Positions 242-56,746 of a stretch of DNA of 64,000 nt are shown here, piece after piece (position 1 is the first letter of the stretch; the number at the start of each line of letters is the position of its first letter). Source of the stretch: Frigoribacterium sp. Leaf263 (GTDB lineage: Bacteria; Actinomycetota; Actinomycetes; Actinomycetales; Microbacteriaceae); the NCBI RefSeq assembly GCF_001422285.1, contig NZ_LMMO01000005.1, positions 1 through 64,000 of the forward strand, read 5' to 3'. The notes under the pieces were generated by a model that was given only the letters and a program-made list of their open reading frames with translations, ran no database searches and was not told the origin of the DNA. Made by a program: the position numbers and the translations under genes.

Positions 242-2461
242 CTACTTCGAGGAGGCGCGGTGCCGGCGAGCGAGCATCAGCAGCCCGGCTCCGAGGGCGA
301 GCAGCGCGGCGCCGACGCCCGCCGCGAGCCCCGCGGCGTCGGAGCCGGTGAAGGCCAGCGCACCGTCGTCGCCGTCGTCACCCGCGCCTCCTGCGTCCGC
401 CGGGTCGGAGTCCTGCCCCGATCCCGAGTCCGAGCCGCCGATGCCGTCGGCCGAGCCGTCGGCGCCGTCGGTCGGAACGGGGACCGGCGCGATCGTGCCG
501 CCGTCATCGGGGTCTCCCGGCTGGGCCGTGGGGGTCGAGGTCGGCTCGGTGGTCGGCGGCGTGGTCGGGTCGACCGGCGGCGTGGTCGGCTCGGCCGGCG
601 GGGTGGTCGGCTCGGCCGCGGTCGGCACCGAGATGGCGTACATCGTCGTCGAGCCCGAGACCTCGTTGCCGACGGCCAGCATCGGCTCGCCGGTGGGCGA
701 GTCGTCGGCCGAGATGAAGGCGAGACCCTCGGGGCCGAGGTCGCCGGCGCGGGTCAGCACGTCGGCGGGGTCGGCTCCGGCGTCGATCTCGTCCTCCGCC
801 GAGACGGCGAGGTCGCGGTTGTTGACGTAGGCGGTGAAGGTGGCGCGGGTCGGCTCGGTCACGTCGTACACGGCGATCCCGCCGACGCGCTCGAATCCGA
901 TGAACGCGTACGTCCGCCCGTCGATCTCACCCAGGGCGACGCCCTCGGGCTCCGGGCCCTTGTCGTCGCTGCGGCCGTCCACGCCCGTGGAGGAGTGGTT
1001 CGAGTTGAACGACTCGGGGGCGACCTCGGCGAGCAGCTGCTCGAACGCGTCGCCGGAGTCGAACACCGAGGCTCCGCCCGCGTCGAGGATGCTGAACGAC
1101 CGGCCGCCGAACGTGTACAGCGTCTCGTAGCAGCTCTCGTCGGCGGAGAGGCCGTCGGCGGTCGTGATGTTGAGGCGGCCGAGACCGGCGTCGGTCAGCA
1201 GCGACGGGTCGATCGAGTCGCAGACGGGGGCGAGACCGTCGTCGCCGAGGTCCTTCACCCGGGCGACCTCGCTGTAGGCCGACCAGTCGCGCGAGTCGCC
1301 CTCGTTCGCGGTCACGATGTAGGTCTCGCCGTCGACCTCGTAGCTGTCGATCGTGTCGGGCATGAGGTACCCCTGCACCGGCCAGGTGCCGATCGCGACG
1401 GCCGGTCCGCCGTCGACGCCGTCGCGGTCGGACGGGTCGAACGGCACGACCGAGCGGTCGACCGTGCCGAGCGGCACGACGTCGGTGATGGTCGCCGAGG
1501 CGACGTCGACGAGGGCGAGCGCGTTCGCCTCCTGCAGCGAGACCCACGCGGTGGCGCCGTCGGCCGAGAACGTGGCGTACTCGGGTTCGAGGTTCTCGGA
1601 CACGGGGCGCACCAGCGGGTCGGCCGCGGTCACCGTGCCGGCGTCGTCCCGCCCGCCGAAGATGCGCACGGCGGGGTCGACGGGGGTGGCGCCATCGGCT
1701 TCGAACGCATGGAAGTCGGCCGTCCGCACGGCGGTCTGGGCCGGGACCGCCACGGTGGAGGGGACGTCGATCAGGCTGACGGCGCCCTCGGGGTCCGCCG
1801 AGTAGTCGTCGGCCGGCTCGCCCTCGTTCGCGACGATCACGCGGGTGCCGTCGGGCGAGAAGGCGACCATGTCGGGCAGGGCGCCGACGCGCACGGCTCC
1901 GAGGGCGTCGCCGTCGCCCGCGGCGTCGAAGAAGACGATCCAGCCGGCGTCGGTCTTGGGGCTCGACTCGACGGCGACGACGCCGAGTCCGTCGGCCCGC
2001 ACCGCCACGGAGTTCGCGACGGCGTCGGCGGGCACGACCGAGCCGTCGGCGGCGAGCACGCCGGTGGTCTGCAGGTCGAAGAGCTTCGTCGGGGTGGTCG
2101 GATCGGCGACGTCGAGCACCTCGACGCGAGCGGCCGCGGCGTTGACGACCAGCAGACGCTGCCCGGCGGCGTAGTGGGCGACGATCTCGGCGGCGCTCTC
2201 GTCGAAGACGCCCGTCTCGTAACCGCCGACCGGCGCCATCGAGAACGCGTCGGCGTCGGCGAACGAGCTGATGGGCGCGGCGACGACGGCGGCCGAGGCC
2301 GGGGCGGTCGTGGCGCCGGGCCCGACGGCGGCGAGGGCCACGAGGCCGAGGCCCGTCAGACCGGCGGCGCCGGCGAGGGCGGTCCGACGGGTGCGCGGGC
2401 TGCGCGGAGCCGAGGAGGCGCGGGTCGCGTCGAGCGGGGAGGGGCGGCGGGCTGGTCGCAT
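242..2461 (-). CDS. Cell-wall anchored choice-of-anchor I family protein
   Basis: 739 residues. A twin-arginine-like, Ala-rich secretion signal (RTRRTALAGAAGLTGLG) precedes a long beta-propeller-type region with LLVVNAAAARVEVLDV, VAFSPDGTRVIVANEGEP and EPEGVA motifs, typical of choice-of-anchor I / alkaline-phosphatase-like surface proteins. A TTPPAEPTTPP and SDSGSGQDSD spacer leads to LAFTGSDAAG, a hydrophobic helix and a basic tail, the LAxTG signal used by class E sortases. The catalytic role is unknown; family members are annotated as phytase- or phosphatase-like. The ATG at 2461 follows AAGGACC at good distance; an upstream in-frame ATG at 2527 lacks one. The dispersed 18-bp repeat encodes TRASSA near the N-terminus (2410-2427), and a shorter copy encodes the last residues (248-260). 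Confidence 0.85.
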   Translation of the reverse strand: MRPARRPSPLDATRASSAPRSPRTRRTALAGAAGLTGLGLVALAAVGPGATTAPASAAVVAAPISSFADADAFSMAPVGGYETGVFDESAAEIVAHYAAGQRLLVVNAAAARVEVLDVADPTTPTKLFDLQTTGVLAADGSVVPADAVANSVAVRADGLGVVAVESSPKTDAGWIVFFDAAGDGDALGAVRVGALPDMVAFSPDGTRVIVANEGEPADDYSADPEGAVSLIDVPSTVAVPAQTAVRTADFHAFEADGATPVDPAVRIFGGRDDAGTVTAADPLVRPVSENLEPEYATFSADGATAWVSLQEANALALVDVASATITDVVPLGTVDRSVVPFDPSDRDGVDGGPAVAIGTWPVQGYLMPDTIDSYEVDGETYIVTANEGDSRDWSAYSEVARVKDLGDDGLAPVCDSIDPSLLTDAGLGRLNITTADGLSADESCYETLYTFGGRSFSILDAGGASVFDSGDAFEQLLAEVAPESFNSNHSSTGVDGRSDDKGPEPEGVALGEIDGRTYAFIGFERVGGIAVYDVTEPTRATFTAYVNNRDLAVSAEDEIDAGADPADVLTRAGDLGPEGLAFISADDSPTGEPMLAVGNEVSGSTTMYAISVPTAAEPTTPPAEPTTPPVDPTTPPTTEPTSTPTAQPGDPDDGGTIAPVPVPTDGADGSADGIGGSDSGSGQDSDPADAGGAGDDGDDGALAFTGSDAAGLAAGVGAALLALGAGLLMLARRHRASSK
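2410..2427 (+). repeat. Dispersed 18-bp repeat, exact copy (in CDS)
   Basis: CCGAGGAGGCGCGGGTCG, exact. It lies inside the N-terminal secretion region of the choice-of-anchor-I gene, where it is read on the minus strand as TRASSA. Confidence 0.9.
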
Positions 2462-2590
2462 GGGAACGGTCCTTCGTCGGGGGTCGCGTCGACGGTAAGG
2501 ACCACAGGTGTTGCGCACGTGAACCACCGGTGTCGAGCGGGTGCCGCACCGCGCCTCCCGGCCGGCGCCGCGCCTCCGACCCGTGTCGCG

Positions 2591-3499
2591 CTAGGCGGGC
2601 GCGATGACGCGCAGCGCGCCCGGCACGACCTCGACGGTCACCGGCAGCGACCCCACCCGCTCGCCGTCGGCGAAGGCCGCGACGTCGTCGGAGTGGATCG
2701 TGACCCGCCGTGCGCGGTGCACGTGCACGCGCGGATCGGCGAGGTGCGTGCCCCGGGCGACCTGCGCGAACAGCCGCAGGAACCCGAGCCTCCCCAGCCG
2801 CTCGACGACCAGCACGTCGAGCAGCCCGTCGTCGAGCAGGGCGTCGGGCAGCACGGTGATGCCCCCGCCGAACGAGCGGCCGTTGCCGACGCTGACGAGG
2901 GTGCCGTCGAGCTCGAGCGTCTCGCCGTCGATCTCGAGGCGGTACGACAGGTGCTTGAGCCGGATCAGTTCGAGGTACAGGGCGATGGTGTACCGGCTGC
3001 GGCCCCGGGGGCGCCGCATGCGGTTGGCGCGCTCGTTGACGACCGCGTCGAACCCGGCCGAGAGCATGCAGGCGAACCAGGTCGTCTCGTCGCCCCGGGT
3101 CACGCGCCCGGCGTCGATGACGCGGGCCGGTCGGTCGAGCTGCGAGACGAGGAGGCGCGTGGCCGACTCCGCATCGTCGTGCGGGATCCCCAGGGCCCTG
3201 GCCATGTCGTTCCCGGTGCCGGTCGGCACGAGCCCGAGGGGGACGCCGGTGCCGGCGACGAGGTTCGCGCCGAGGTTCATCATGCCGTCGCCGCCGACGA
3301 CGACGAGGGCGTCGGGCGAGGCGGCGATCTCGCGGCGCGCAGCGGTCACGAGGTCGTCGAACGAGTCCTTCAGCAGCAGCGTGACCTCGTGGCCGGCGGC
3401 GGTCAGCGCCGAGACGACCGATGCGCCGACGTCGCTCCGTCGCCCGAACGACGCGGAGGGGTTGACCGCGACGACGAGGCGGAGGGGGGTGGGGCTCAT
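2591..3499 (-). CDS. Diacylglycerol kinase family lipid kinase
   Basis: 302 residues. The nucleotide-binding DAGK catalytic domain shows VVAVNPSASFGRR at the start, the VVVGGDGMMNLGANLVAG glycine motif and VPTGTGNDMAR (residues about 70-100). The C-terminal domain has SVGNGRSFGGGITVLPDA followed by DGLLDVLVV. Family members phosphorylate diacylglycerol or related lipids with ATP at the cytoplasmic face of the membrane. The ATG at 3499 starts MSPTPLRL; the longer open frame upstream has no domain content. It faces the DUF4383 gene across a 174-bp divergent gap. Confidence 0.88.
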   Translation of the reverse strand: MSPTPLRLVVAVNPSASFGRRSDVGASVVSALTAAGHEVTLLLKDSFDDLVTAARREIAASPDALVVVGGDGMMNLGANLVAGTGVPLGLVPTGTGNDMARALGIPHDDAESATRLLVSQLDRPARVIDAGRVTRGDETTWFACMLSAGFDAVVNERANRMRRPRGRSRYTIALYLELIRLKHLSYRLEIDGETLELDGTLVSVGNGRSFGGGITVLPDALLDDGLLDVLVVERLGRLGFLRLFAQVARGTHLADPRVHVHRARRVTIHSDDVAAFADGERVGSLPVTVEVVPGALRVIAPA

Positions 3500-6180: not shown

Positions 6181-6831
6181 ATGTCCGTCGTCATCCCCTT
6201 CTCGCAGGCCCTGCGAGAGCGCACCTCGGCGTCGAGCGCCACCGGCGACATCGGCTGCACGTTCATGGCCGACCTCATGACGGGTCGCGGCACGCGTGAC
6301 GACTACATCGAGATGCTCGCCCAGCACTGGTTCGTGTACGAGGCGCTCGAGACCGCAGCGGCCCGGTTCGCCGGTGACGCCGTCGCCGCACCGTTCCTGT
6401 CGCCGGCGCTTACCCGGCTGCCGGCCATCACGGCCGATCTGGAGTTCCTGCTCGGCGACGACTGGCGGTCGCGGATCCGCCCGCTCGAGGTCACGAGCGA
6501 CTACTGCGCCCGGATCCGCGCGGCGTCCGAGTGGGTCGGCGGATTCATCGCCCATCACTACACGCGGTATCTCGGCGATCTGTCGGGCGGGCAGCTGATT
6601 CGCGGCCTCATGCAGCGGCAGTTCGGGTTCGACACCAACGGCGTCGGGTTCTTCCTGTTCGCCGAGATCGCCGCCCCGAAGGAGTTCAAGTCCACCTACC
6701 GGCGGCAGCTCGACTCCGTCGACTGGAGCCCGGAGGCGCGTGAGCGGGTGCTCGACGAGGTCGCCGTCGCGTACCGGTTCAGCACCGAGCTGTTCGTCGA
6801 GCTCGCCGCCGCCAAGGCCGCCGCCGCCTGA
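6181..6831 (+). CDS. hmuO: Heme oxygenase (biliverdin-producing)
   Basis: 216 residues, the usual size for bacterial HmuO-type enzymes. It cleaves heme to biliverdin, CO and free iron in the cytoplasm. Visible family features are the N-terminal FSQALRERTSASSATGD, an FMADLMTGRGTRDDYIEMLAQHW helix and the distal-helix signature RYLGDLSGGQLIRGLMQR. The expected proximal histidine is missing at its usual place near residue 20 (family HSxAE; here SSATGDIG), which deserves checking, while AQHW and HHYTRYLGD are kept. The ATG follows GGAGGGG closely. An iron box sits directly upstream, so it probably scavenges iron from host or environmental heme. No heme importer is in the window. Confidence 0.85.
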   Translation: MSVVIPFSQALRERTSASSATGDIGCTFMADLMTGRGTRDDYIEMLAQHWFVYEALETAAARFAGDAVAAPFLSPALTRLPAITADLEFLLGDDWRSRIRPLEVTSDYCARIRAASEWVGGFIAHHYTRYLGDLSGGQLIRGLMQRQFGFDTNGVGFFLFAEIAAPKEFKSTYRRQLDSVDWSPEARERVLDEVAVAYRFSTELFVELAAAKAAAA

Positions 6832-8280: not shown

Positions 8281-8326
8281 CCGAGGAGGCGCGGGGAGCG
8301 GATCCAATCTACCCGCGCCTCCTCGG
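8281..8326. repeat. Inverted pair of dispersed repeats between divergent genes
   Basis: CCGAGGAGGCGCGGG (8281-8295) and its exact reverse complement (8312-8326) are separated by 16 bp. The pair lies between the divergent starts of the helicase (8244) and the 8369 gene, so it cannot be a terminator for either. It could form a cruciform or a hairpin in a leader. Confidence 0.85.
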
Positions 8327-13790: not shown

Positions 13791-13842
13791 CGGCCGTCGC
13801 AGCCCGCCCCGAGCATCCCCGGGTCGGACGGCGAGCCCGACC

Positions 13843-14817
<975 letters not shown>

Positions 14818-14855: not shown

Positions 14856-14873
14856 CGACCCGCGCCTCCTCGG
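14856..14873 (-). repeat. Dispersed 18-bp repeat, exact copy (5' leader)
   Basis: The exact reverse complement of CCGAGGAGGCGCGGGTCG lies 38 bp upstream of the NmrA-like ATG, between it and the dehydrogenase gene. Confidence 0.9.
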
Positions 14874-16211: not shown

Positions 16212-16229
16212 CCGAGGAGGCGCGGGTCG
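16212..16229 (+). repeat. Dispersed 18-bp repeat, exact copy (intergenic)
   Basis: CCGAGGAGGCGCGGGTCG, exact, just after the 3' end of the ZIP transporter gene (stop at 16245, minus strand). Confidence 0.9.
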
Positions 16230-20595: not shown

Positions 20596-20678
20596 GGGTT
20601 CCAGCCTAGGTCGGGTGTCCTGGGTGCGGACGCGGATCGTTCGGCTCCGAGAGACCGAGGCGGTCGCCGGGGCGGGCC

Positions 20679-20696
20679 CGAGGAGGTGCGGGTCGG
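20679..20696 (+). repeat. Dispersed 18-bp repeat, one mismatch
   Basis: CCGAGGAGGTGCGGGTCG, 17 of 18 positions, between the HU terminator and the CopD-CtaG start. Confidence 0.85.
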
Positions 20697-22044: not shown

Positions 22045-22074
22045 AGAGTACGCGACACGCCCGGGAAGACGCAA
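22045..22074 (-). promoter_or_regulatory. Promoter of the rpmB operon
   Basis: On the minus strand TTGCGT (22074-22069) and TACTCT (22050-22045) are separated by 18 nt. No Zur-like palindrome is seen nearby. Confidence 0.5.
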
Positions 22075-22075
22075 C

Positions 22076-22118
22076 CCGCGCCTCCTGAGGGTCGACGGCG
22101 GCAGCCGAGGAGGCGCGG
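22076..22118 (-). terminator. Hairpin of two dispersed repeats after zur
   Basis: CCGCGCCTCCT (22076-22086) pairs perfectly with AGGAGGCGCGG (22108-22118). It begins 2 nt after the zur stop codon and separates the zinc operon from the ribosomal operon. Confidence 0.75.
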
Positions 22119-22119
22119 C

Positions 22120-22557
22120 TCAGTCGCGCGACGGAGCCCGCGTGACCGCCGGGTCGCGCCCCGCGGCCTTCTCGGCCGAGCACGCGGCGCAGAGGCCGAA
22201 GACGTCGACGATGTGCTGGGCCTCGGTGAAGCCGTGCTGTGCGGCGACCTGCCGCGCCCAGGTCTCGACGGCGTCCGCCTCGATCTCGACGGTGGTGCCG
22301 CAGACCCGGCAGATGAGGTGATGGTGGTGCGTTCCGGGAGTGCAGGCGCGGTAGAGGCTCTCGCCCTCCTGCTGCAGGGAGTCGGCCGACCCGTCGTTGG
22401 CGAGATCGGACAGGGCGCGGTAGACCGTCGCCAGGCCGATGGGCGATCCCGCCTCGCGCAGCTGGGTGTGCAGCGACTGGGCGCTGACGAAGCCCTCGCT
22501 GCTGCCGAGCGCCTCGCGCACGGCCTCGCGCTGCCACGTGTTGCGCCGGACTACCAT
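22120..22557 (-). CDS. zur: Fur-family zinc uptake regulator
   Basis: 145 residues. The winged helix is RREAVREAL-like (WQREAVREALGSS) through GSPIGLATVYRALSDLANDG. The metal sites are THHHHLICRVCGTTVEIE and the second pair CAAC. The two CxxC pairs hold structural zinc. The gene is 18 nt after znuB, in one operon with the zinc ABC importer, which supports Zur rather than Fur identity. It would repress the Zur box in front of znuA when zinc is sufficient, so it is autoregulated. Confidence 0.9.
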   Translation of the reverse strand: MVVRRNTWQREAVREALGSSEGFVSAQSLHTQLREAGSPIGLATVYRALSDLANDGSADSLQQEGESLYRACTPGTHHHHLICRVCGTTVEIEADAVETWARQVAAQHGFTEAQHIVDVFGLCAACSAEKAAGRDPAVTRAPSRD

Positions 22558-22575: not shown

Positions 22576-23469
22576 TCAGGCCTCCTGTTTCGCGGCCAAG
22601 GCTACCCGCGCCGGTCGGCGGGGCCTGAGCGTCCGCGCGTCGCGACGTCGCCCGATGAGGCGGCAGACGAGCCAGATGGCGAACGAGATGGTGGTGACGT
22701 AGGGGCTGATCGGCAGGCCGCCGCCGAGCGCGAGCAGGATCCCGCCGACGACGGACGTCACGGCGAAGGCGATGCTCAGCAGCGGCACGAGGCGGGGGTT
22801 GACCGTCAGGCGCAGGGCGGCCGCGGCGGGTGTCACGAGCAGCGAGAGCACGAGCAGGGCGCCGACGATCTGCACCGACACGGCGACCGCGAGGCCGAGC
22901 ACGAGCATGAAGACGATGCTCAGCGTGCGCACCGGCACGCCGGCGGCGGCCGCCACGTCGGGATCGACGCTCGCGAAGGTCAGGGGCCGCCAGATGACCA
23001 GCAGCGTGACGATCACGACGGCCGAGATGGTCATCAGCCAGCCCAGCTGCGGGTTGTCGACGGCCACGATCTGACCCGTGAGGAGGCCGAAGCGGTTGGC
23101 CGACCGGCCCTGGTACAGCGCGAGGCAGAGGATGCCGATGCCCAGGCCGAAGGGCATGAGCACGGCGATGATCGAGTTCCGTTCGCGCGCCCGCGAGCCG
23201 AGCAGTCCGATCAGCAGGGCGGCCACGACGCTGCCGACGACGGATCCGGCCACGACGTTCGCGCCGAACAGCAGAGCCGCCGACGCGCCGGCGAACGAGA
23301 GCTCGCTGATGCCGTGCACCGCGAACGGCATGTTGCGGGTGAGCACGAACGGCCCGATCAGACCGCCGACGAGACCGAGCACCGCACCGGCGATGATCGA
23401 GTTCCGCACGAGGGCGACGAGCTCGCCGAAGTCCTGGAACGAGAAGAGCTGGGCCCACAGGTCGGTCAT
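22576..23469 (-). CDS. znuB: Zinc ABC transporter permease
   Basis: 297 residues with eight or nine helices of the ABC-3 metal permease family. NSIIAGAVLGLVGGLIGPFVL, MPFAVHGISELSFAGAS and GVPVRTLSIVFMLVLGLAV are typical. The start ATG overlaps the znuC stop (ATGA). It passes zinc from ZnuA to the cytoplasm using ZnuC. Confidence 0.93.
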   Translation of the reverse strand: MTDLWAQLFSFQDFGELVALVRNSIIAGAVLGLVGGLIGPFVLTRNMPFAVHGISELSFAGASAALLFGANVVAGSVVGSVVAALLIGLLGSRARERNSIIAVLMPFGLGIGILCLALYQGRSANRFGLLTGQIVAVDNPQLGWLMTISAVVIVTLLVIWRPLTFASVDPDVAAAAGVPVRTLSIVFMLVLGLAVAVSVQIVGALLVLSLLVTPAAAALRLTVNPRLVPLLSIAFAVTSVVGGILLALGGGLPISPYVTTISFAIWLVCRLIGRRRDARTLRPRRPARVALAAKQEA

Positions 23470-24344
23470 CGCGGGCCTCCGCCGTCGTCGAGCGGTTCGA
23501 GGTGGTGGTCGTCGTGCCCGTGGCTCCCGACGATGACGATGCGCCCCATCGTGCGGATGACGTCGACGGGCGTCCCGTAGAGCTCGCTGAGCACGGACGC
23601 CTGCAGCACCTCGTCGGGCGTGCCGATGCGGAACGAGCCGCCGGCGAGGTAGAGCACCCGGTCGACGACGTCGAGGATCGGGTTGACGTCGTGCGTCACG
23701 AAGACCACCGCCGTCTCACGTGCACGGCGCTGACGGTCGAGCAGCTCGGTGACGCCGCGCTGGTGGCGCAGGTCGAGCGAGATCAGGGGTTCGTCGCAGA
23801 GCAGCAGGGCGGGATCGGCGGCGAGGGCCTGACCGACGCGGGCCCGCTGCTGCTCGCCGCCCGAGAGAGAGGCGACGGGGGCGTCGGCGAACGACGTGGC
23901 GCCGACCTCGTCGACGAGAGCGTCGATGGCGGCCCGCTCGCTCGGGCTCTCCCGGCGGAGGCCCCACCGGTGACCGGTGACGCCGAGGGCGATCATGTCG
24001 CGGGTCCGCAGGGGCGTTCCCGCCTCCATCAGACGCTGCTGCGGGACGTAGCCGATGCGGCGGTGGCCGCGGGCGACGGGCTGACCGAGGAACTCGATCG
24101 ACCCCGTCGTGAGCTCCTGCTGACCGAGGATCGTCCGCAGCATCGTGGTCTTGCCGGCCCCGTTCGGTCCGAGCACGGCGATGAACTCGCCGGGGGCGAC
24201 GTCGAGGTCGAGCCCCGACCAGAGGGTGCGGCCGCCGAAGCCGACGCCGGCGTCGCGCAGGCGCAGCACGGCGTCGCCGCCGCGCCCGGCCGAGGAGGCG
24301 CGGGTCGCGACGGCGGGGGAGTCGTCGGGGGATCCCTGGGTCAC
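23466..24344 (-). CDS. znuC: Zinc ABC transporter ATP-binding protein
   Basis: 292 residues. Walker A is VLGPNGAGKTTMLR, the signature is SLSGGEQQRARVGQAL, Walker B is ALLLCDEPLISLD and the H-loop is VFVTHDVNP. I chose the GTG at 24344, whose GTGA overlaps the znuA stop; the ATG at 24389 would overlap by 49 nt. The first 30 residues are an atypical extension that includes TRASSA, encoded by an exact dispersed repeat (24290-24307). The family core only begins at VLRLRDAGVGF. Confidence 0.93.
   Translation of the reverse strand: MTQGSPDDSPAVATRASSAGRGGDAVLRLRDAGVGFGGRTLWSGLDLDVAPGEFIAVLGPNGAGKTTMLRTILGQQELTTGSIEFLGQPVARGHRRIGYVPQQRLMEAGTPLRTRDMIALGVTGHRWGLRRESPSERAAIDALVDEVGATSFADAPVASLSGGEQQRARVGQALAADPALLLCDEPLISLDLRHQRGVTELLDRQRRARETAVVFVTHDVNPILDVVDRVLYLAGGSFRIGTPDEVLQASVLSELYGTPVDVIRTMGRIVIVGSHGHDDHHLEPLDDGGGPR
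24290..24307 (+). repeat. Dispersed 18-bp repeat, exact copy (in CDS)
   Basis: CCGAGGAGGCGCGGGTCG, read on the minus strand as TRASSA in the non-conserved N-terminal extension of ZnuC. Confidence 0.9.
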
Positions 24345-25513: not shown

Positions 25514-27100
25514 CTAGTCGAGCAGCAGCGCCGGCTCTTCGAGCACGCTCGCCACGTCGGCGACGAACCGGCTCGCGACGTCGCCGTCGACCACGCGGTG
25601 GTCGAAGCTCGCGCCGATGGTCGTCACCATGCGGCTGCGGACCTCGCCGTCGACGACCCACGGCTTCTGCTTGATCGTGCCGAGGGCGACGATGGCGACC
25701 TCGCCGGGGTTGAGGATCGGCGTGCCGGTGTCCATGCCGAAGACGCCGATGTTCGTGATGGTGATCGTGCCGTCCTGCATGTCGGTCGGCGTCGTCTTGC
25801 CGTCGCGGGCCGTCAGCGTCAGCTGCTCGAGCGCCTGGGCGAGCTCGAGCAGGCTCATCGACTGGGCCTCCTTCACGTTCGGCACGATCAGGCCGCGGGG
25901 AGTGGCCGCCGCGATGCCGAGGTTGACGAAGTGGCGGACGAGGATCTCCTTGTCGGTCCACGCGCTGTTGACCATCGGGTTCCGGCGCACGGCCCAGATG
26001 ATCGCCTTCGCCATGATCAGCAGCGGCGACACCTTCACGCCGGCGAACTGCGGCGAGTTCTTCAGGCGCTTGACGAACTCCATGGTGCGGGTGGCGTCGA
26101 CGTCGACGAAGAGGCTCACGTGCGGCGCGGTGAAGGCCGACGACGTCATGGCCCGGGCGATGGCCTTGCGGACGCCCTTGACGGGGATCCGCTCGATGCG
26201 CTCCTCGCCCCACTCGGGCGTCTCGATGTTGCGGAACACGCTCGCCTGCTGCGCGTGACGGATGACGTCGTCGCGGGTGACCTCGCCGGCGAGACCGGTC
26301 GGCTGGACGCTCGACAGGTCGACCTCGAGGTCTTTGGCGAGCTTGCGGATCGGCGGCTTGGCGATGATCGGCAGGGCCTGCGCGGCGGGGACCGACGTCG
26401 TCGGGCGCCGGCGGGCCTGCTCGGCGACGCGCAGCTGGCGCGCGTCGACCTCGCTCTGGGCGGGCTTGCGGCGACGGGTCGAGCCCGAGCCGCCCGCGGC
26501 CCCGTAGCCCACGAGCACGGCGCCCGAGCCGCCGTCGGAGGACTCGTCGTGGGCGGAGGCGACCGAGCCGGTCCCGCCGCTCGCCGCGACGGCGTCCGCC
26601 GAGGGGGCGGGCGCGGCGGGTGCGGCCGGAGCCGCGGCGGCCGCCGCAGGAGCCTGAGCCTGAGCCACCGGTGCGTCGTCGGAGCCGCCCTCCGAGGAGG
26701 CGCGGGTCGTCACGACCGGGATCGACGCGGTGTCGAGGCCCCTGGCCCGCTGCTCGGACAGCGCCTCTTCGTTCTGCGAGATGATCTGGGCGGTGCGCGC
26801 CAACCCGCCCGACTCGGACGCCTCCGCCTCGGCGGCGCGATCGCCGGGGGTGCGGGGCGCTCCGCCCTCGCCGATGGTGATGATCGGGGTGCCGACGTCG
26901 ACCGTCTCACCCGAGGCGACGAGCACGCTCTCGACGACCCCCGCGTACGGGGAGGGGAGCTCGACGAGCGACTTGGCGGTCTCGATCTCGACGAGCACCT
27001 GGTTGATCTGGACGGTGTCGCCCGGGGCGACGCGCCATTCGACGATCTCGGCCTCGGTGAGGCCCTCGCCGACGTCGGGCAGAGCGAATTCGCTGGTCAT
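25514..27100 (-). CDS. bkdC: Branched-chain 2-oxoacid dehydrogenase E2 (lipoyl acyltransferase)
   Basis: 528 residues. One lipoyl domain (residues 1-77) with lipoyl-lysine in [13 protein letters not shown] long Ala/Pro/Ser linker includes TTRASSEGG, encoded by an exact dispersed repeat. The peripheral-subunit-binding domain (about 240-275) has [20 protein letters not shown]. The catalytic domain ends in [19 protein letters not shown] with the active-site HxxxDG. It transfers acyl groups to CoA. It is third in the E1alpha-E1beta-E2 operon. An E3 gene is not in the window, as is common. Confidence 0.92.
26692..26709 (+). repeat. Dispersed 18-bp repeat, exact copy (in CDS)
   Basis: CCGAGGAGGCGCGGGTCG, read on the minus strand as TRASSE in the flexible linker of the E2 protein. 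Confidence 0.9.
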
Positions 27101-33201: not shown

Positions 33202-33219
33202 CCGAGGAGGCGCGGGTCG
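33202..33219 (+). repeat. Dispersed 18-bp repeat, exact copy (intergenic)
   Basis: CCGAGGAGGCGCGGGTCG, exact, 18 bp from the 3' end of the small membrane gene at 33237. Confidence 0.9.
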
Positions 33220-35767: not shown

Positions 35768-35785
35768 TCGAGGAGGCGCGGGTCG
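35768..35785 (+). repeat. Dispersed 18-bp repeat, one mismatch
   Basis: TCGAGGAGGCGCGGGTCG, 17 of 18 positions, 15 bp downstream of the idi stop codon (minus strand). Confidence 0.85.
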
Positions 35786-43702: not shown

Positions 43703-44123
43703 CCTCAAGAACCCCCAGGAGAGCACGAAGAAGTCGCTCGGCTCGCTGCTCGGCAGCCTGCCCGAGCTGATCTCGCGGCTCATCCGCGGAGAGATCGCGC
43801 TGGCGAAGACCGAGCTCGCGACGAAGCTGAAGGAGGTCGGGGTCGGTGCGGGTCTGCTCGTCGGAGCCGCGCTCTTCGGCTTCTTCCTGCTCGCCGTGCT
43901 GCTGACCGCGGCCGTGCTCGGTCTGGCGACCGTGGTGGCCCCGTGGCTGGCCGCCCTGATCGTGGCCGCCGTCCTGCTGATCGTCACCGCCGTGCTCGCC
44001 CTGCTGGGCGTCAAGGCGCTGAAGAAGGGCGTCCCGCCCACCCCGGAGAAGACCGTCGCCAGCGTCAAGGCCGACGTGACCGCGTTGAAGGGGCAGGGTG
44101 GCTATGACTCCGCGAAGCACTGA
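43695..44123 (+). CDS. Holin_3_6-like membrane protein
   Basis: 142 residues. An amphipathic N-terminus (SLPELISRLIRGEIALAKTE) and two helices (VGAGLLVGAALFGFFLLAVLL and ALIVAAVLLIVTAVLALLGV) match the actinobacterial Phage_holin_3_6 family, which is chromosomal in most members. The start overlaps the YtxH-like stop, and its stop overlaps the next ORF. It probably acts in envelope maintenance. Confidence 0.8.
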   Translation: MTDLKNPQESTKKSLGSLLGSLPELISRLIRGEIALAKTELATKLKEVGVGAGLLVGAALFGFFLLAVLLTAAVLGLATVVAPWLAALIVAAVLLIVTAVLALLGVKALKKGVPPTPEKTVASVKADVTALKGQGGYDSAKH

Positions 44124-44475
44124 GCCGAAGCCCGACCCCGAACGCGAGCTCGCCGAGGCCCGAGCCGAGGAGGCGCGGGTCGAGAAGGCCGGCGCCACCG
44201 GTGACGAGACGCCCGCGGAGAACGAGAAGGGGCCGCGCCCCGGCGCGAGCATCCCCGAGATCGAGCTCGACATCGCCCGGACCCGCGAGGAGTTCGCGGC
44301 CACCCTCGACGCCATCGAGGACAAGCTGAGCGTCCCCGCTCACGCCCGTCGCCTGAAGGCGAGCGTCAAGCGGCGCTACGCCGATGACCCGAAGCCGGTC
44401 GTCGCCGCAGCCGCCCCCGGCGCGGCGGGCCTCGCGGCGATCGTCGCCGGCGTCGTCAAGGCCGCACGCCGCTGA
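44104..44475 (+). CDS. DUF3618 protein
   Basis: 123 residues. The DUF3618 motif is IPEIELDIARTREEFAATLDAIEDKLSVPAHARRLK, followed by one helix (PGAAGLAAIVAGVVKAAR). The N-terminal 45 residues are charged and include EARAEEARVEKAG, encoded by an exact dispersed repeat (44165-44182). The ATG at 44104 or a GTG at 44098 could be the start. It usually accompanies YtxH- and holin-like genes, as here. Confidence 0.82.
   Translation: MTPRSTEPKPDPERELAEARAEEARVEKAGATGDETPAENEKGPRPGASIPEIELDIARTREEFAATLDAIEDKLSVPAHARRLKASVKRRYADDPKPVVAAAAPGAAGLAAIVAGVVKAARR
44165..44182 (+). repeat. Dispersed 18-bp repeat, exact copy (in CDS)
   Basis: CCGAGGAGGCGCGGGTCG, read as AEEARVE in the variable N-terminus of the DUF3618 protein. 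Confidence 0.9.
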
Positions 44476-46776: not shown

Positions 46777-46801
46777 GTCAGCGGGTGTCAGCGGGTGTCA
46801 G
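46775..46801 (-). repeat. 10-bp tandem repeat at the acs stop
   Basis: GTGTCAGCGG repeated 2.7 times. Because 10 is not a multiple of 3, the stop codon appears in more than one frame here (46778 and 46788). Confidence 0.8.
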
Positions 46802-48841
46802 CTGCTCGCGGATGGCGGCGATGCGGCCGGGCACCGTGTCGTCCTGCAGGCTCGTGGTGTCGCCGAGCGGGCGGCCGTCGACGATGTCGCCGAGCAGGCG
46901 ACGCATGATCTTGCCCGAGCGGGTCTTGGGCAGGTCGGGCACGACCAGCACCGTCGCGGGCTTGGCGATCGGGCCGATCTGGTCGGCGACGTGGGCTCGC
47001 AGCGCGCCCGACAGCGACCCCGCGAGCGGAGCCCAGATCTGCGGTTCGCGCGCGCACCCGGAATCCGGCACCGCGCCTCCGGCGGGTCGGGAGGCGGGCA
47101 CGACGAAGGCGGCGATCGCCTGACCGGTGCGGTCGTCGGCGACACCGACGACCGCCGCCTCGGCCACGAGCGGGTGCGCCACCAGCGACGACTCGATCTC
47201 GATCGTCGACAGACGGTGACCCGACACGTTGATCACGTCGTCGACGCGCCCGAGCACCCAGATGTCGCCGTCGGCGTCGTACTTCGCGCCGTCGCCCGAG
47301 AAGAACCAGCCCTGGCGCCAGTACTTCGCCCAGTACGAGTCGCGATAGCGCTTCGGGTCGCCCCACACGGTGCGGGCCAGCGACGGAGGCGTCTGCTGCA
47401 CGACGAGGTAGCCGCCGGCGCCGTTCGGCACGCGAGCGCCGTCGTCGTCGACCACAGCCGTCGAGACTCCGGGCAGAGCCCGCAGCGACGAGCCCGGCTT
47501 GAGGGTGTCGACGCCCGGCAGCGGCGCCATGACGCTCGCCCCCGTCTCGGACTGCCACCAGGTGTCGACGATCGGGCACTCGCCGCGGCCGAACTGCTCG
47601 TGGAACCAGACCCACGCCTCGGGGTTGATCGCCTCGCCGACGGTGCCGAGCAGACGCAGCGACGAGAGGTCGTACGTGTCGGGGAGCCCGTCGGGGAACC
47701 ACGACGAGAGGGTGCGCACCAGGGTGGGGGCCGTGTAGTACGTGGTCACGCCGTAGCGCTCGATGATCTCGAGGTGCCGGGCCGGGTGCGGGGTGTCGGG
47801 CGTGCCCTCGTAGATCACCTGGGTCAGGCCGTTCGAGAGCGGCCCGTAGATCTCGTACGTGTGGGCCGTCACCCAGGCGAGGTCGGCCGTGCACCAGTGG
47901 ACGTCGTCGGGCTTCGCGTCGAAGACCGCCCAGTGCGTGTAGCTCGCCGCCGTGAGGTACCCGCCGCTGGTGTGCACCAGCCCCTTCGGGCGACCGGTCG
48001 TGCCGCTGGTGTACATGATGAACAGCGGCGTCTCGGCGTCGAAGGCCTCGGGGTCGTCGGTGTCGGGCTGGGGGTCGACGACGTCGTGCCACCACAGGTC
48101 GCGGCCCTCGGTCCAGGGCACGTCGGGGGTCTGATCGCCCGTCCGGCGGACGACGAGCACGTGCTCGATGGCGTTGGAGCCGCTGACCGCGTGGTCGGCG
48201 TTCGCCTTGACCGGCACCGCGCCTCCTCGACGGAACTGGCCGTCGGTGGTCACGAGCAGCTTGGCCCCGGTGTCTTCGACGCGGAACCTCAGGGCCTCGC
48301 CCGAGAAGCCGCCGAACACGAGCGAGTGGATCGCCCCGATGCGCGCGATGGCCAGGGTGACGACGATCGTCTCGGCGATCACCGGCAGGTAGACGACGAC
48401 GCGGTCGCCCTTCGTGACGCCGAGCGATCGCAGGCCGTTCGCCGCCTTGACGACCTCGCGCTGCAGCTGGGCGTACGTGATGTCGCGCCGGTCGCCGGGC
48501 TCGCCCTCGACGTGCAGTGCGACCTTCTCTCCGCGCCCGGCCGCGACGTGACGGTCGACGCAGTTGACCGCGACGTTGAGGCGCCCTCCGGCGAACCAGG
48601 TGGCCTCGGGGACGGTCAGCTCGCCGTCAGGGCCCTCCGTCACGGGCGACCAGGTGTGGGCCGTGCGCCAGGGGGTGTCCCATTCGAGTCGGTGCGCCTG
48701 CTCCTCCCAGAAGGCGACGGGATCGGCGGCGGCTCGCGCGTGCTCGGACGAGGCCACGTTCGCGGTCGCGGCGAGCCCGGGAGGCGCGGGGAACCGCCGC
48801 CGCTCGTCGAGCAGATTCGAGATGGTGTCGGTCGTCGCCAT
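46778..48841 (-). CDS. acs: Acetyl-CoA synthetase
   Basis: 687 residues. Adenylate-forming core FIMYTSGTTGRPKGLVHT, TWWQSETGASVMAPLPG, VLGRVDDVINVSGHRLST and the acetylatable lysine in LPKTRSGKIMRR. It activates acetate to acetyl-CoA. There is a roughly 25-residue insertion before the C-terminal helix (RPAGGAVPDSGCAREPQ), partly encoded by a repeat core (47070-47077). RRGGAVPVK, also over a repeat core (48217-48230), coincides with the conserved RRG. The ATG is 6 nt after TAGCAT (leaderless). Confidence 0.95.
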   Translation of the reverse strand: MATTDTISNLLDERRRFPAPPGLAATANVASSEHARAAADPVAFWEEQAHRLEWDTPWRTAHTWSPVTEGPDGELTVPEATWFAGGRLNVAVNCVDRHVAAGRGEKVALHVEGEPGDRRDITYAQLQREVVKAANGLRSLGVTKGDRVVVYLPVIAETIVVTLAIARIGAIHSLVFGGFSGEALRFRVEDTGAKLLVTTDGQFRRGGAVPVKANADHAVSGSNAIEHVLVVRRTGDQTPDVPWTEGRDLWWHDVVDPQPDTDDPEAFDAETPLFIMYTSGTTGRPKGLVHTSGGYLTAASYTHWAVFDAKPDDVHWCTADLAWVTAHTYEIYGPLSNGLTQVIYEGTPDTPHPARHLEIIERYGVTTYYTAPTLVRTLSSWFPDGLPDTYDLSSLRLLGTVGEAINPEAWVWFHEQFGRGECPIVDTWWQSETGASVMAPLPGVDTLKPGSSLRALPGVSTAVVDDDGARVPNGAGGYLVVQQTPPSLARTVWGDPKRYRDSYWAKYWRQGWFFSGDGAKYDADGDIWVLGRVDDVINVSGHRLSTIEIESSLVAHPLVAEAAVVGVADDRTGQAIAAFVVPASRPAGGAVPDSGCAREPQIWAPLAGSLSGALRAHVADQIGPIAKPATVLVVPDLPKTRSGKIMRRLLGDIVDGRPLGDTTSLQDDTVPGRIAAIREQLTPADTR

Positions 48842-49092: not shown

Positions 49093-51717
49093 GTGCAGAT
49101 CACCTCAGGTCGTGGGCGCGTCCGCCTCGGCACCGCCCTCGCGCTCGCCGGAGCCCTCGTGCTCTCGCCTCTGGCGGCCGTCGCCGCCGAGCCGGCCCCC
49201 GAGACGCCTGCGCCGTCTGCAGCGCCGACGGAGACCTCCGCCGTCGCCGAGACGCCTGCGCCGGCCGAGACGCCCGCGCTGGCCGAGACGGCCGTGCCGG
49301 CCGAGACGCCCGCGCTGGCCGAGACGCCCGCGCTGGCCGAGACGCCCGCGCCGGCCGACACGCCCGATGCGCCCGCCCCGGTCGAGCCGACCGCCGCCGT
49401 GGCGCCCGAGGCGCTCGCCGCCGTCGAGCTCATGAACTACGTCGTCAACGTCGACGCCACCGAGACCGCCGTCGCCGAGGCGCGCGCGGCCGTGGTCGCC
49501 TCCGGCGGGGTCGTGCTGATGAGCTACCCCGAGATCGGGGTGGTGACCGCGCAGTCGTCCGACACCGGTTTCCTCGATGCGATCCGCGCCTCCTCGGGCG
49601 TGCGGTCGGCCGGACCGACGCGCCAGGCCGCCGTCACCGAGGGGGCCGTCGCCGCCGACTGGGCGGGTGGCACCCTCGCGATCGACCGACCCCGCGCAGA
49701 GGCCGGGATCACCGCCGCGCCTCTCGTCTCGCAGCAGTGGGACATGGACGCCATCGGCGCCCCGCAGGCGCGCTCCCTCGAGCCGGGCGACGCCGACGTG
49801 CTCGTGGGCGTCCTCGACAGCGGCATCGCCGTCGACCACCCCGATCTCGCGACGCAGGTCGACCCGGCCGCGTCGGTCGGCTGCTCGGTCAACGGGATCC
49901 CCGATCAGAGCAGATCCGCGTGGATCCCCGTCGACGACAGCGAGTCGCACGGCACGCACGTCGCGGGCACGATCGCGGCGAACGCCGACGGCAGCGGCAT
50001 CACCGGCGTCGCGCCGGGCGTCACCCTCGCGAGCGTCAAGGTCGTCAACCACGACGGGTTCATCTACCCCGAGTACGCGCTCTGCGGCTTCATGTGGGCC
50101 GCCGCGCAGGGCATGGACGTCACGAACAACAGCTACTACGTCGACCCGTGGGCGTTCTGGTGCGAGGGGCAGCCCGAGCAGCAGCCCGCGCTCGACGCCG
50201 TCGAGAAGGCCGTCGCCTGGTCGCAGCAGCAGGGCGTGCTGAACATCGCGGCGGCCGGCAACGAGGACTACGACCTCGCGAACAAGACCACCGAGTCGAC
50301 CAGCCCGGACGACGGCGTCTACGACTCCGAGGGGAACCACGTCTCGGGTCCGCGGCCCATCGAGGACCGCGACGTGTCCGAGGGGTGCGTCGACCTGCCC
50401 GCCGGCGTCGACGGCGTCGTCACGGTCGCCTCGGTCGCGCAGCAGCCCGACGGCTCGGTCGCGAAGTCGTCGTTCTCGAACTACGGCGAGGGCGAGATCG
50501 ACGTCGCGGCACCCGGCTCCGCGATCCTCAGCACGGTGTTCGGCGGTCGCTACGACGTCTACAGCGGCACCTCGATGGCGTCGCCGCACGTCGCCGGCGT
50601 CGCTGCTCTGCTCGCCACGACCCACCCCGATGCGAGCCCCGCCGAGCTGCAGACCCTGCTGACCTCGCAGGCCGCCGATCTCGGCGACAGCGAGCTCTAC
50701 GGCGCCGGACTCGTCGACGCCTTCGCCGCCGTGACCGAGGGCCTCGACCTCGGCCCGACGGCAGCCGTCGCCGACGCCACCATCCAGGCCGGGGTCCCGT
50801 TCCGGCTGCTCGGAGCGGGCTTCGCGCCGGGTGAGGCCGTCGTGCTCACGCTCGAAGCGGGCGGCGTCGATCAGGACGACCCGAACCTCGTCTCGACCGT
50901 CGCCTCGAGCGACGGCCGTCTCGACGTCGTCGGGCAGTTCGGGCCGGCGGCGCCGGTCGGTCCCGCCACGATCGAGATCACGGGCGCGGGCGGGCCCAGG
51001 GCACGTGTCGCCGTCGACGTCACGGCGCCCCTCGCCGGGCCCGGGGTCTCGTCGCCCGCCGACGGCGACACGCTGGACGGCGACACCGTCACGGTGACCG
51101 GCACGGCACGACCGGGCGCCGGGGTGGTCGCGGGCATCGCCCTGTCCGGTGACGACATGGTGCGCGCCGGCGTCGACGAGGCCGGTCTGGCCGGCGACGC
51201 GCTCGCCGCCGCCGAGCGACGGGTCGCCGCGGGGCTCGAGGCCGCCGAGCCCGTCCCGTTCGACCCCGACGCCCCCATCACCGTGGCGGCGGCCTTCGCC
51301 GACGCGCGCGGAGCATGGAGCGTCGAGTTCGCCGACGTCCCCGGCGGCGACTTCATCGCGGTCGGCCTCGCGCAGGTCCTCTCGGACGGCAGCGTCTCGG
51401 CCCCCGGCGACCCCGTCGCCTTCTCGGTCGAACGCGCCGTGGCCGAGGTCCCGCCGGCTCCCGAGAGCCCGCCGGCCGTGACCGACCCGGTCGCGCCCGT
51501 CGAGCCGGCCGGAGCCGCGCCCACCCCCGACATCGCCCCCGCGGGCGGCCCGACCGCCCTCGCCTACACCGGCTCCGAGTCCGCGCCCGCCCTCGGGCTC
51601 GCCGGGATGCTCGTCGTGGCGGGTCTCGCCCTCGTGATCGCGACGGCTGCCGGGCGACGTCGGCGGCGGGCCGAGGAGGCGCGGGTCGACACGACGGGCG
51701 TCCTCCCGTCCGACTGA
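49093..51717 (+). CDS. Cell-wall anchored subtilisin-family (S8) serine protease
   Basis: 874 residues. A signal peptide (LALAGALVLSPLAAVAA) and a low-complexity ETPALAETPA repeat segment (18-bp DNA units, 49210-49380) lead to an inhibitor-I9-like propeptide (NYVVNVDATETAVAEAR). The S8 triad is GVLDSGIAVDHPDLA (Asp), DSESHGTHVAGTIAAN (His) and YSGTSMASPHVAGVAAL (Ser). C-terminal beta domains, a Pro-rich stalk and LAYTGSESAP with a helix follow. The last residues (AEEARVDTTGV) are encoded by an exact dispersed repeat. The GTG has AGGAG at 5 nt. Confidence 0.9.
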   Translation: MQITSGRGRVRLGTALALAGALVLSPLAAVAAEPAPETPAPSAAPTETSAVAETPAPAETPALAETAVPAETPALAETPALAETPAPADTPDAPAPVEPTAAVAPEALAAVELMNYVVNVDATETAVAEARAAVVASGGVVLMSYPEIGVVTAQSSDTGFLDAIRASSGVRSAGPTRQAAVTEGAVAADWAGGTLAIDRPRAEAGITAAPLVSQQWDMDAIGAPQARSLEPGDADVLVGVLDSGIAVDHPDLATQVDPAASVGCSVNGIPDQSRSAWIPVDDSESHGTHVAGTIAANADGSGITGVAPGVTLASVKVVNHDGFIYPEYALCGFMWAAAQGMDVTNNSYYVDPWAFWCEGQPEQQPALDAVEKAVAWSQQQGVLNIAAAGNEDYDLANKTTESTSPDDGVYDSEGNHVSGPRPIEDRDVSEGCVDLPAGVDGVVTVASVAQQPDGSVAKSSFSNYGEGEIDVAAPGSAILSTVFGGRYDVYSGTSMASPHVAGVAALLATTHPDASPAELQTLLTSQAADLGDSELYGAGLVDAFAAVTEGLDLGPTAAVADATIQAGVPFRLLGAGFAPGEAVVLTLEAGGVDQDDPNLVSTVASSDGRLDVVGQFGPAAPVGPATIEITGAGGPRARVAVDVTAPLAGPGVSSPADGDTLDGDTVTVTGTARPGAGVVAGIALSGDDMVRAGVDEAGLAGDALAAAERRVAAGLEAAEPVPFDPDAPITVAAAFADARGAWSVEFADVPGGDFIAVGLAQVLSDGSVSAPGDPVAFSVERAVAEVPPAPESPPAVTDPVAPVEPAGAAPTPDIAPAGGPTALAYTGSESAPALGLAGMLVVAGLALVIATAAGRRRRRAEEARVDTTGVLPSD
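51671..51688 (+). repeat. Dispersed 18-bp repeat, exact copy (in CDS)
   Basis: CCGAGGAGGCGCGGGTCG, read as AEEARVD in the cytoplasmic tail after the sortase signal of the subtilase. Confidence 0.9.
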
Positions 51718-55339: not shown

Positions 55340-55375
55340 GACGAGGAGGCGCGGGTCGACCCGCGCCTCCTCGTC
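55340..55375 (+). terminator. 36-bp perfect palindrome made of two inverted dispersed repeats
   Basis: Two near-full-length repeats in inverted orientation, meeting at 55357/55358, form 18-bp arms with no loop, 40 nt after the Rpf-like stop. A smaller perfect palindrome (GCTCCGCGCGGAGC, 55300-55313) precedes it. Terminator function is likely. Confidence 0.8.
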
Positions 55376-55418
55376 GCATGCCTAGGATGGTCCGGACCGC
55401 CACCTGAAGAAGGACCCC

Positions 55419-56675
55419 GTGACGAAGGCCCCCACCGTCTACGACGTGGCCGCGCACGCGGCCGTGTCGATCGCGACGGTGTCGCGGGTGCTGCGGCGCC
55501 CCGACGACGTGCGTCCCGAGACCCGCACTCGCGTGCTCGAGTCGGTGCGCGCGCTCGGCTACGTGCCGAGCGGCGCCGCGCGAGGGCTCGCGGGTCGACG
55601 GCACGGCGTGCTGGGGCTGTTCCTGCCGGGGCACGACGCGATCGACGAGCCCGAGCCCGACTGGGCGATGCTCACCGACTCGAGTCGCATCCCCCTCGTC
55701 GACGACCGGGAGGCGCGGGTCGCCCCGTCCGCCCAGGGCACCGCCCCGGGTGCGGAGCCGGCCTCACGGGGCGGCGGCCCGAGCGGCGGCCCGCTGGGTG
55801 CGGGCGCCCCCGTCGCGACCGCTCGGCACTGGTCGAACCCGGCGAACCTCTACTTCGACGAGGTGCTGCGCGGCGCGGAGGTGGAGTCGTGGCGACGCGG
55901 ATTCGCGCTCATGGTCGCCGCCGGTCGCGGATCGAGCCGCGAGGTCATCGTGAACGACATCGCGGGCCGGGTCGACGGTCTGGCCGTCCTCGCGCAGACG
56001 GTGCCGGCCGACCTCCTCGCCCACGTCTCGCGGCGGATCCCCGTCGTCGTGCTCGCCGACTCCCGCCCGGGCGACGAGCTCGACCACGTCAGCGTCGACA
56101 ACGTCGCCGGCATGCGGGCGCTGACCGCGTTCGTGCTCGACGGGCCGGGCGCGTCCGATCTGGTCTACGTCACCGGCCCGAGCGACTCGCCCGACGAGGC
56201 CGACCGGCACCGCGGCTTCGACGAGGCCGTCGCCGCGCACCGCTCCGCCGCTCGCTCGAGCGGCGCGGGCGCCCGCTCCGCCGCCGACGCGGACGCCGAG
56301 GTGCGGGTGCGGGTCGAGCGGGGCGACTTCAGCCGCGACGGCGGGCGCCGAGTGGCGGAGGAGCTGCTCGCCCGGGCGGAGCCCCTGCCCGACGCCGTGG
56401 TCTGCGCCAACGACCAGACCGCGCTCGGCGTGCTCGACGTCTTCGGCCGGGCCGGCGTCGACGTCCCCGGTCGTGTACGGGTGACGGGCTTCGACGGCAT
56501 CGAGGCCGGGCGCTTCTCCTCACCCCGGCTCACGACCGTGCGCCAGCCGATGGGCGAGCTCGGCCGCGTCGCCGTCCGCTCGGTGGTCCGGCGGCTGACC
56601 GACCCGGGGCTCGCCCCGCAGCGCGTCACCCTGCCCGTCGAGGTGCTGCTGCGCGAGAGCTGCCCCGCCCGGTGA
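55419..56675 (+). CDS. LacI-family transcriptional regulator with insertion
   Basis: 418 residues, longer than the usual 330-350. The HTH is TVYDVAAHAAVSIATVSRVLRR (residues 6-27), hinge GYVPSGAARGLAGRR. Residues about 71-143 are a Gly/Ala/Pro-rich insertion, including REARV encoded over a repeat core. The periplasmic-binding-like core then resumes at NLYFDEVLRGAEVE and ends in GFDGIEAGRFSSPRLTTVRQ. It probably senses a sugar and binds the TGTA-N6-TACA site at 58366. The GTG has AAGGA at 5 nt. Confidence 0.88.
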   Translation: MTKAPTVYDVAAHAAVSIATVSRVLRRPDDVRPETRTRVLESVRALGYVPSGAARGLAGRRHGVLGLFLPGHDAIDEPEPDWAMLTDSSRIPLVDDREARVAPSAQGTAPGAEPASRGGGPSGGPLGAGAPVATARHWSNPANLYFDEVLRGAEVESWRRGFALMVAAGRGSSREVIVNDIAGRVDGLAVLAQTVPADLLAHVSRRIPVVVLADSRPGDELDHVSVDNVAGMRALTAFVLDGPGASDLVYVTGPSDSPDEADRHRGFDEAVAAHRSAARSSGAGARSAADADAEVRVRVERGDFSRDGGRRVAEELLARAEPLPDAVVCANDQTALGVLDVFGRAGVDVPGRVRVTGFDGIEAGRFSSPRLTTVRQPMGELGRVAVRSVVRRLTDPGLAPQRVTLPVEVLLRESCPAR

Positions 56676-56684
56676 GCGACGGCG

Positions 56685-56746
56685 CGACCCGCGCCTCCTC
56701 GGCTCGCGGCCCGCGCCTCCTCGGCTCGCGGCCTGCGCCTCCTGGG
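56685..56746 (-). repeat. 22-bp tandem array of dispersed repeats
   Basis: An exact 18-bp copy (56685-56702, reverse complement) begins 2.7 units of GCGCCTCCTCGGCTCGCGGCCC, 10 nt after the LacI stop, in the gap between convergent genes. Confidence 0.9.

Follow-up and report, generated by a model that had tools for sequence, protein, structure and literature searches.

Several kinds of short DNA words that are dispersed in many copies are known from bacteria. HIP1 of cyanobacteria is a palindromic, over-represented word dispersed in coding DNA. Repetitive extragenic palindromic (REP) sequences and bacterial interspersed mosaic elements (BIMEs), which go with RAYT transposases, form hairpin pairs in intergenic DNA, and Chi and the FtsK-orienting polar sequences (KOPS) are short, over-represented and non-palindromic. 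The uptake signal sequence (USS) has a core with weaker flanks, a feature that it shares with the word described below. In the section of PMC3630211 used here, the DNA uptake sequence (DUS) of the Neisseriaceae is a word of about 10 bp with about 1,000 or more copies per genome (943 to 5,918 in the listed genomes) and with dialects around a conserved core. According to the excerpt of PMC1939737 used here, USS of the Pasteurellaceae are partly genic, enriched outside genes, inverted in about 10% and free of orientation bias; in H. influenzae, 65% lie in reading frames. A passage of PMC12616744, which also mentions the extended USS (eUSS), states that uptake sequences are known in just two proteobacterial families. 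Here we describe a dispersed 18-mer, CCGAGGAGGCGCGGGTCG, in the first 64 kb of contig NZ_LMMO01000005.1 of Frigoribacterium sp. Leaf263 (the whole stretch analyzed, hereafter the window). It resembles DUS in word length, copy number and dialects, and USS in its largely genic placement, extragenic enrichment and lack of orientation bias. It differs from both in its word and host, the host belonging to the Actinomycetota, and from DUS also in that the word is GC-rich and the strain itself appears to lack type IV pili. Unlike HIP1, its core is non-palindromic, though a GGATCC word of another genome of the family (G034) is palindromic.

Nine exact copies of the 18-mer were found in the window, all at the places and on the strands reported by an earlier first-pass annotation, whereas 8e-5 copies were predicted from composition and 5e-4 by an order-4 Markov model trained on other stretches of the same genome. 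The statement that a specific 18-mer should not occur even once was thus borne out. With up to three mismatches, 30 copies were counted, against a mean of 1.65 and a maximum of 6 over 100 shuffles. The strain's own genome (G000; 3.24 Mb, 10 contigs) carried 164 exact 18-mers (80 forward and 84 reverse) and no copy of the reversed 18-mer; the core GGAGGCGCGG was present 1,421 times and its reversed control 103 times. The genome-wide count, which the annotation had named as a way to refute the repeat, was therefore far above expectation. Alignment of 192 GGAGGCGCGG copies from 464 kb of G000 (the window and 20 further stretches) showed that the conserved unit is GGAGGCGCGG, preceded by A in 65% of the copies and flanked by weaker preferences from -4 to +7 bases, so that CCGAGGAGGCGCGGGTCG is the form in which a sharp core is most often extended. 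In the same sample, the 13-mer CGAGGAGGCGCGG occurred 84 times against 0.8 expected, and its 39 single-mismatch variants summed to 85, with just 6 of these mismatches within GGAGG. The window was richer in cores (13.4 per 20 kb) than 23 other stretches of its genome (2-12).

The distribution of the word was analyzed by counting across 299 genomes of the family. Seven host-genus genomes (G000, G035, G110, G167, G218, G260 and G298) carried 842-1,421 copies of GGAGGCGCGG with 103-148 reversed controls, and six Curtobacterium genomes carried 216-688 copies with 61-118 controls and with flanks that differed from those of the host genus. No comparable excess of GGAGGCGCGG was found in the other listed genera. 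G055, which is nearest to Leifsonia poae and is one of five genomes of group g55, had 399 copies against 142 controls and is not counted as a clear case because its copies were nearly all genic (16/17 sampled) and their flanks little conserved. The longer word AGGAGGCGCGG occurred 383-1,239 times in 16 host-genus genomes (control at most 27). Among 248 genomes of the order, drawn without Curtobacterium and with G000 as the sole host-genus member, it occurred 945 times in G000 (control 19) and at most 29 times in each of the other 247. The repeat is thus nearly restricted to the host genus and Curtobacterium. The latter group (g32) was identified as Curtobacterium, and the window placed within the Microbacteriaceae, by leucyl-tRNA synthetase (LeuRS) identity; LeuRS of the two g32 genomes tested, G105 and G295, was 87-97% identical to that of three named Curtobacterium loci. 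Three named Curtobacterium loci contained 4 cores in 67 kb, with 2 reversed controls.

Species dialects were observed around the shared core, as in uptake sequences. A was the usual preceding base in G000, G110, G167, G218 and G260. In G035 it was mostly C (61% of 31) and in G298 mostly G (52% of 23); the samples were small except for G000 and G110. Genome-wide, the form with A made up 945 of the 1,421 cores in G000, 487/1,378 in G035 and 383/1,304 in G298. In Curtobacterium, T or G preceded the core and the 5' flank was extended by CGGCC.

Curtobacterium-like hairpin words were also seen on plasmids, at 6517-6563 of NZ_CP126587.1 (Curtobacterium citreum; 89% identity) and at 112639-112693 of NZ_CP038257.1 (a Microbacterium sediminis plasmid; 86% identity). 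A phage origin was considered and rejected: exact scans of viral contigs found a 17-mer in 33 stretches and a Curtobacterium-type 16-mer in 44, with one copy each. Separately, the LeuRS of a locus filed under Stenotrophomonas maltophilia (L161) was 69% identical to the actinobacterial query, and this locus is perhaps a contaminating contig.

The origin and retention of genic copies were analyzed in 988 reciprocal-best orthologue pairs from sampled stretches of the seven genus members, 282 of them with a core copy; the trials are not independent, given the relatedness of the genomes and the counting of each pair both ways. The alignment was ungapped at the motif in 449 of 511 copy-orthologue comparisons and gapped in 62, as compared to 2,407 of 2,555 ungapped at random positions, indicating that copies in genes were mostly gained and lost by substitution, not insertion. 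The insertion-like presence and absence sought by the annotation was therefore largely missing, a result that bears on its mobile-repeat idea only. The copies were shared in 260/511 comparisons, against 847/2,555 random positions. Inside copies, fourfold-degenerate codons with A or T at the third position kept that base 102 times out of 137, as compared to 34.9 expected from the same codons outside, and the codon GGA was kept in 78/99 cases inside copies versus 122/544 outside. A smaller set of reversed-control copies was shared in 0/18 comparisons, with the wobble base kept in 14/32 cases against 21.6 expected. The word is thus maintained at the DNA level, rare synonymous bases included.

These data agree with the annotation that DNA rather than protein is acted on: the word is far above chance, its wobble bases are kept and all six frames are used, the one reading the codon AGG being rare (5/173). 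The different peptide readings that it had listed were recovered, TRASSA and GGAVP in codons and AEEARV at 44165 by eye. Its remark that genic copies fall mostly in tails, linkers or insertions has some ground, as copies favor gap-prone stretches over random positions (gaps within or up to 12 nt from the motif in 141/511 comparisons versus 244/2,555); "mostly" did not hold, 370 of the 511 being free of gaps in that range.

Placement was scored with a purpose-written, unvalidated gene caller, which returned no genes for G024. Of 248 copies of either of two overlapping 10-mers placed in the G000 sample, 173 (about 70%) were genic and 75 intergenic, yet density was about fourfold higher in called intergenic DNA (about 1.77/kb) than in called genes (0.41/kb). 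The reversed control was genic in 21 of 22 cases. Convergent genes had the highest density between them (21 in 7.9 kb) and divergent genes the lowest (9 in 12.2 kb). Neighboring copies lay less than 60 nt apart in 22 of 227 pairs, where 7.2 were expected, and 15 of these close pairs were inverted. When five inverted pairs chosen by eye, three of them in the window, were folded, four had a stability well beyond that of shuffles (z -6.7 to -8.8), and the fifth exceeded it by less (z -2.4). The annotation had suggested that orientation be compared with the replication arms. In G110, the sole genome tested, over 27 stretches with the origin position scanned, no leading-strand bias was detected at any assumed origin, either for 194 cores (0.469-0.531, within the null) or for 532 copies of AGGAGGCG (0.470-0.530). 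Intervals of 2 kb with GC below 0.67 contained 5 copies in 46 kb, as compared to 399 in 1,018 kb elsewhere; foreign DNA or conserved genes of low GC content may account for this scarcity.

The genomic traits of the repeat match those on record for uptake sequences. Near-identical, non-palindromic copies number in the hundreds to thousands, are strand-symmetric and show no replication polarity in G110; they are genic yet enriched in non-coding DNA, a minority forms inverted pairs, and genic copies accumulate by point changes. By analogy, we propose that the repeat may be a DNA-level recognition word of the DUS/USS kind, a reading that we hold to be evenly balanced between right and wrong. In such a system, a surface DNA receptor would prefer word-bearing DNA during natural transformation, DNA would enter through a Tad-type pilus or by another route and then pass the ComEA/ComEC channel, and recombination with incoming word-bearing DNA would let copies accumulate and persist by molecular drive. 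In the open-licence literature, no title or abstract reported an actinobacterial, Gram-positive or Microbacteriaceae uptake sequence; among the matches listed, no title or abstract reported Curtobacterium repeats and no title of a bacterial-genome-repeat paper was found with the core as text. If the proposal is true, self-DNA recognition would have arisen independently in a GC-rich Gram-positive lineage, the dialects would show co-evolution of receptor and word, and adding the word to DNA could set up transformation in these bacteria. If the word does not serve uptake, a maintained word at about 1,000 copies still needs a reader, and none is described in the open-licence literature searched.

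The genes expected for DNA uptake were searched in the own genome and its relatives. The Pfam Competence domain (ComEC) was found in 55/55 genomes searched. In the own genome, comEA-like and comEC-like genes are adjacent and scored over the cut-off with domain-level models and below it with whole-protein equivalogs. TadA-family ATPases were matched in 27/27 genomes and exceeded the cut-off in 20. One of these 20 is the own genome, in which the ATPase is followed by TadB/C-, Flp- and TadE/G-like genes (read by eye) in a tad-like cluster. In G110, rpsL/rpsG and rpoC are separated by a type IV pilus locus of about 13 kb (L109:1935-14886). PilT exceeded the cut-off in 38/55 genomes, including the six other genus members searched and six Curtobacterium, and a pilin tag lay within 20 kb of the rpoC tag in G110, G035, G298, G218 and G260; the G167 stretch had no rpoC tag. 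In the own genome, rpoC and rpsL are 3 kb apart, just 10 bp separate the GNAT gene from the small gene found on the other side of the pilus block in G110, and only fragments of about 80 nt or less match this block; the place concerned is G000:C4:495343-499314 (L133:9037-10162). PilT was not over the cut-off in G034, G057, G060 and G079, which have strong GGA words, and type IV pili were not decisive as a discriminating feature.

Several of these observations weigh against an uptake role. PilT was not over the cut-off in the own genome, and the simplest reading of the gene order is that the type IV pilus locus was lost in this strain. Were type IV pili the uptake machine, the word should decay in G000 unless the loss was recent. 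G000 has the highest 10-mer count of the seven genus genomes, and no decay was visible in it, with copies kept in 20/53 cases as compared to 22/53 in G035 and 12/46 in G298 (small numbers). The ComEC and Tad genes do not discriminate, since they also occur in sampled relatives without a clear word (G014, G017 and G024). The 13-mer was less sharp in G110, where 57 exact and 105 single-mismatch copies were counted and variation lay mostly toward the 3' end. Spacing was only slightly more even than random, with coefficients of variation of 0.80 versus 0.91 in G000 and 0.82 versus 0.92 in G110; 4% and 7% of permutations, respectively, were at least as even. The dependence among the orthologue comparisons counts on the same side. 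Loss of type IV pili means that the Neisseria arrangement is not simply copied in this strain. This loss alone does not rule out uptake, because transformation of the actinobacterium Micrococcus luteus, which has comEA/comEC, requires tad genes, as stated in the excerpt of PMC4322843 used here.

The retention of the word in a host without type IV pili would also be expected if the repeat were bound inside the cell by a DNA protein, such as a nucleoid organizer, a repair protein or a self-marking protein, and kept by direct selection. DNA-level conservation, strand symmetry and wide spread fit any dispersed site, and much of the family has an excess of a similar GGA-core word. Species-varying flanks and near-random spacing are unexpected for a chromosome-compacting site, and no candidate protein came to light, though no search was aimed at one. 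We consider this explanation unlikely, though it is the strongest of the rivals; of the ideas in the annotation, a recombination or nucleoid site thus keeps some probability. The shortness, over-representation and lack of palindromy of the word, together with its change from genus to genus, would also suit a signal read by a moving enzyme, either a Chi-like recombination hotspot or a KOPS-like polar signal. Unlike Chi and KOPS, the word has no replication polarity in G110, the one genome scored, and intergenic enrichment and inverted pairs are not expected of such signals, making this explanation improbable. Transcription terminators or other RNA signals would account for the stability of four of the five folded inverted pairs and for the density peak between convergent genes. 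About 70% of the copies are genic, in both orientations, and close inverted neighbors are few (15/227 pairs); an RNA role has a slim chance as the explanation of the repeat and may be a second function of certain copies.

Close inverted pairs with strong hairpins, the tandem copies at 56685-56746 and copies in length-variable segments could equally come from a mobile miniature element of the REP/BIME type spreading by transposition, as the annotation had suggested. The repeat shares hairpin pairs in intergenic DNA with REP/BIME and differs from them in that most copies are genic and copies mostly arose by substitution. Similarity within the own genome ends within about 7 bases of the core, and the Y1 transposase domain (Y1_Tnp) was detected in 0/22 genomes of the host genus and Curtobacterium, as compared to 5/14 control genomes. 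Together with the 449/511 ungapped comparisons of genic copies, these results largely refute a mobile element, to which we give very little probability. Still less credible is an origin of the word as a side effect of codon usage, repeats in proteins or composition. The background is not zero (103-148 reversed cores per host-genus genome), and codon shuffles underestimate several unrelated GC-rich 8-mers 2-3 times. GGAGGCGC, however, occurred 167 times against 48.7 in codon-shuffled sequence, the rare codons needed to spell the word are retained, and reversed-control copies lack the sharing seen for the word. The by-product explanation is refuted for the 10-mer core, and the sequence bias raised by the annotation fails as plain composition, given rare single-mismatch variants and a reversed word at background level.

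A de novo scan suggested a different GGA-core word in other genera. The codon-shuffle null used for the counts that follow is imperfect and is exceeded 2-3 times by unrelated GC-rich 8-mers. Observed and codon-shuffled counts of CGGATGCC were 43 and 8.2 in G006, 48 and 10.3 in G063, 71 and 15.0 in G079, and 68 and 11.5 in G080. GGATGCGC occurred 34 times against 7.3 in G028 and GGATCCCG 51 times against 3.8 in G034, and palindromic GGATCC with GC-rich flanks was strongly over-represented in G034 (L316-L319) and in L155. By codon shuffle, the top 8-mers of G014, G017, G021 and G024 (the last without called genes) included no word of this kind, the GGAGGCGC word was not among the top seven in Curtobacterium samples, and GGATGCC was not among the top 8-mers of single loci of Herbiconiux (L144) and Galbitalea. 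Genome-wide, CGGATGCC reached at least 3 times the count of one permuted word, a weak null, in 35/85 genomes (84 genera), and up to 12-fold in G029; in G021 it reached 3.5 times, although the codon-shuffle test had shown no GGA word among the top 8-mers there. It was near strand-symmetric, with about 2,000-4,000 copies per genome (e.g., G025, G029, G040, G057, G060, G063, G069, G079 and G080), and was not raised in the host genus (316 versus 330 permuted in G000). Copies of GGATGCC in Microbacterium were shared in 18/119 cases versus 2/43 for the permuted word. Wobble bases of GGATGCC were kept in 44/112 cases against 53.5 expected in four Microbacterium loci and in 24/40 against 24.7 in Herbiconiux.

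These words could belong to a Microbacteriaceae-wide uptake system with a GGA core in genus dialects. The dialect would be GGAGGCGCGG in the host genus and in Curtobacterium and GGATGCC in a large number of genera, among them Microbacterium, Herbiconiux and Subtercola, with GGATGCG and GGATCC elsewhere. Such a system would be the first sequence-selective transformation in the Actinomycetota and would probably use Tad rather than type IV pili. We regard this bolder case as doubtful and do not make it our main claim, because the permuted-word null is weak and no wobble conservation was observed in Microbacterium and Herbiconiux.

In the window, exact plus-strand copies lie within the start of a called gene on the minus strand (2410-2427; gene 242-2461), between called genes (16212-16229 and 33202-33219), inside two minus-strand genes (24290-24307 in 23466-24344; 26692-26709 in 25514-27100), inside the plus-strand gene 44104-44475 (44165-44182) and inside the 3' end of the plus-strand gene 49093-51717 (51671-51688). 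The copy at 14856-14873 is on the minus strand between called genes; the other minus-strand copy, 56685-56702, is one of three tandem copies with a 22-nt period and 0, 1 and 3 mismatches (56685-56746) between convergent called genes. The core of the 24290-24307 copy is retained in the orthologues of G110, G167, G218 and G260, while G035 and G298 have differing bases and a one-codon gap at the motif edge; the segment around 26692-26709 is gapped in 6/6 orthologues.

One-mismatch copies were found on the plus strand at 20678-20695 and 35768-35785, on the minus strand at 49580-49597, and also at 8309 and 56707. The one-mismatch list of the annotation was correct for 35768 and one base off for the copy at 20678, which it had placed at 20679; it had given 8309, 49580 and 56707 as cores or omitted them. 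Its palindrome, placed at 55340-55375, spans 55341-55374 and is a perfectly inverted pair of one-mismatch copies at 55341 and 55357 (hairpin -41.7 kcal/mol, z -8.1). Two facing copies lie between divergent called genes at 8281-8326 (hairpin -43.6 kcal/mol, z -6.9), and two copies pointing apart cover a gene 3' end and the adjoining gap at 22072-22122, with a weaker hairpin (z -2.4). All 13 short cores of the annotation were found, 12 among copies with up to four mismatches and the one at 63083 as CGCGCCTCCT. The minus-strand core copy at 48213-48230, in gene 46778-48841 on the same strand, is present in G298 and G218 and absent from G035, G110, G167 and G260, which differ there by ungapped substitution. 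The AGGAGGCGCG copy at 63083-63092 (minus strand, in plus-strand gene 62118-63851) has 9 of its 10 bases common to all three orthologues compared, and the tenth varies.

Two further sequences were frequent beside the repeat. A run of the hexamer CGACCC/GACCCC around 13809-13870, beside a called gene, explains most of the remaining 16- and 18-mers that are frequent in the window. CGGACTC was over-represented in the G000 sample as well, with 53 copies in 124 kb where an order-3 model gave 14.4.

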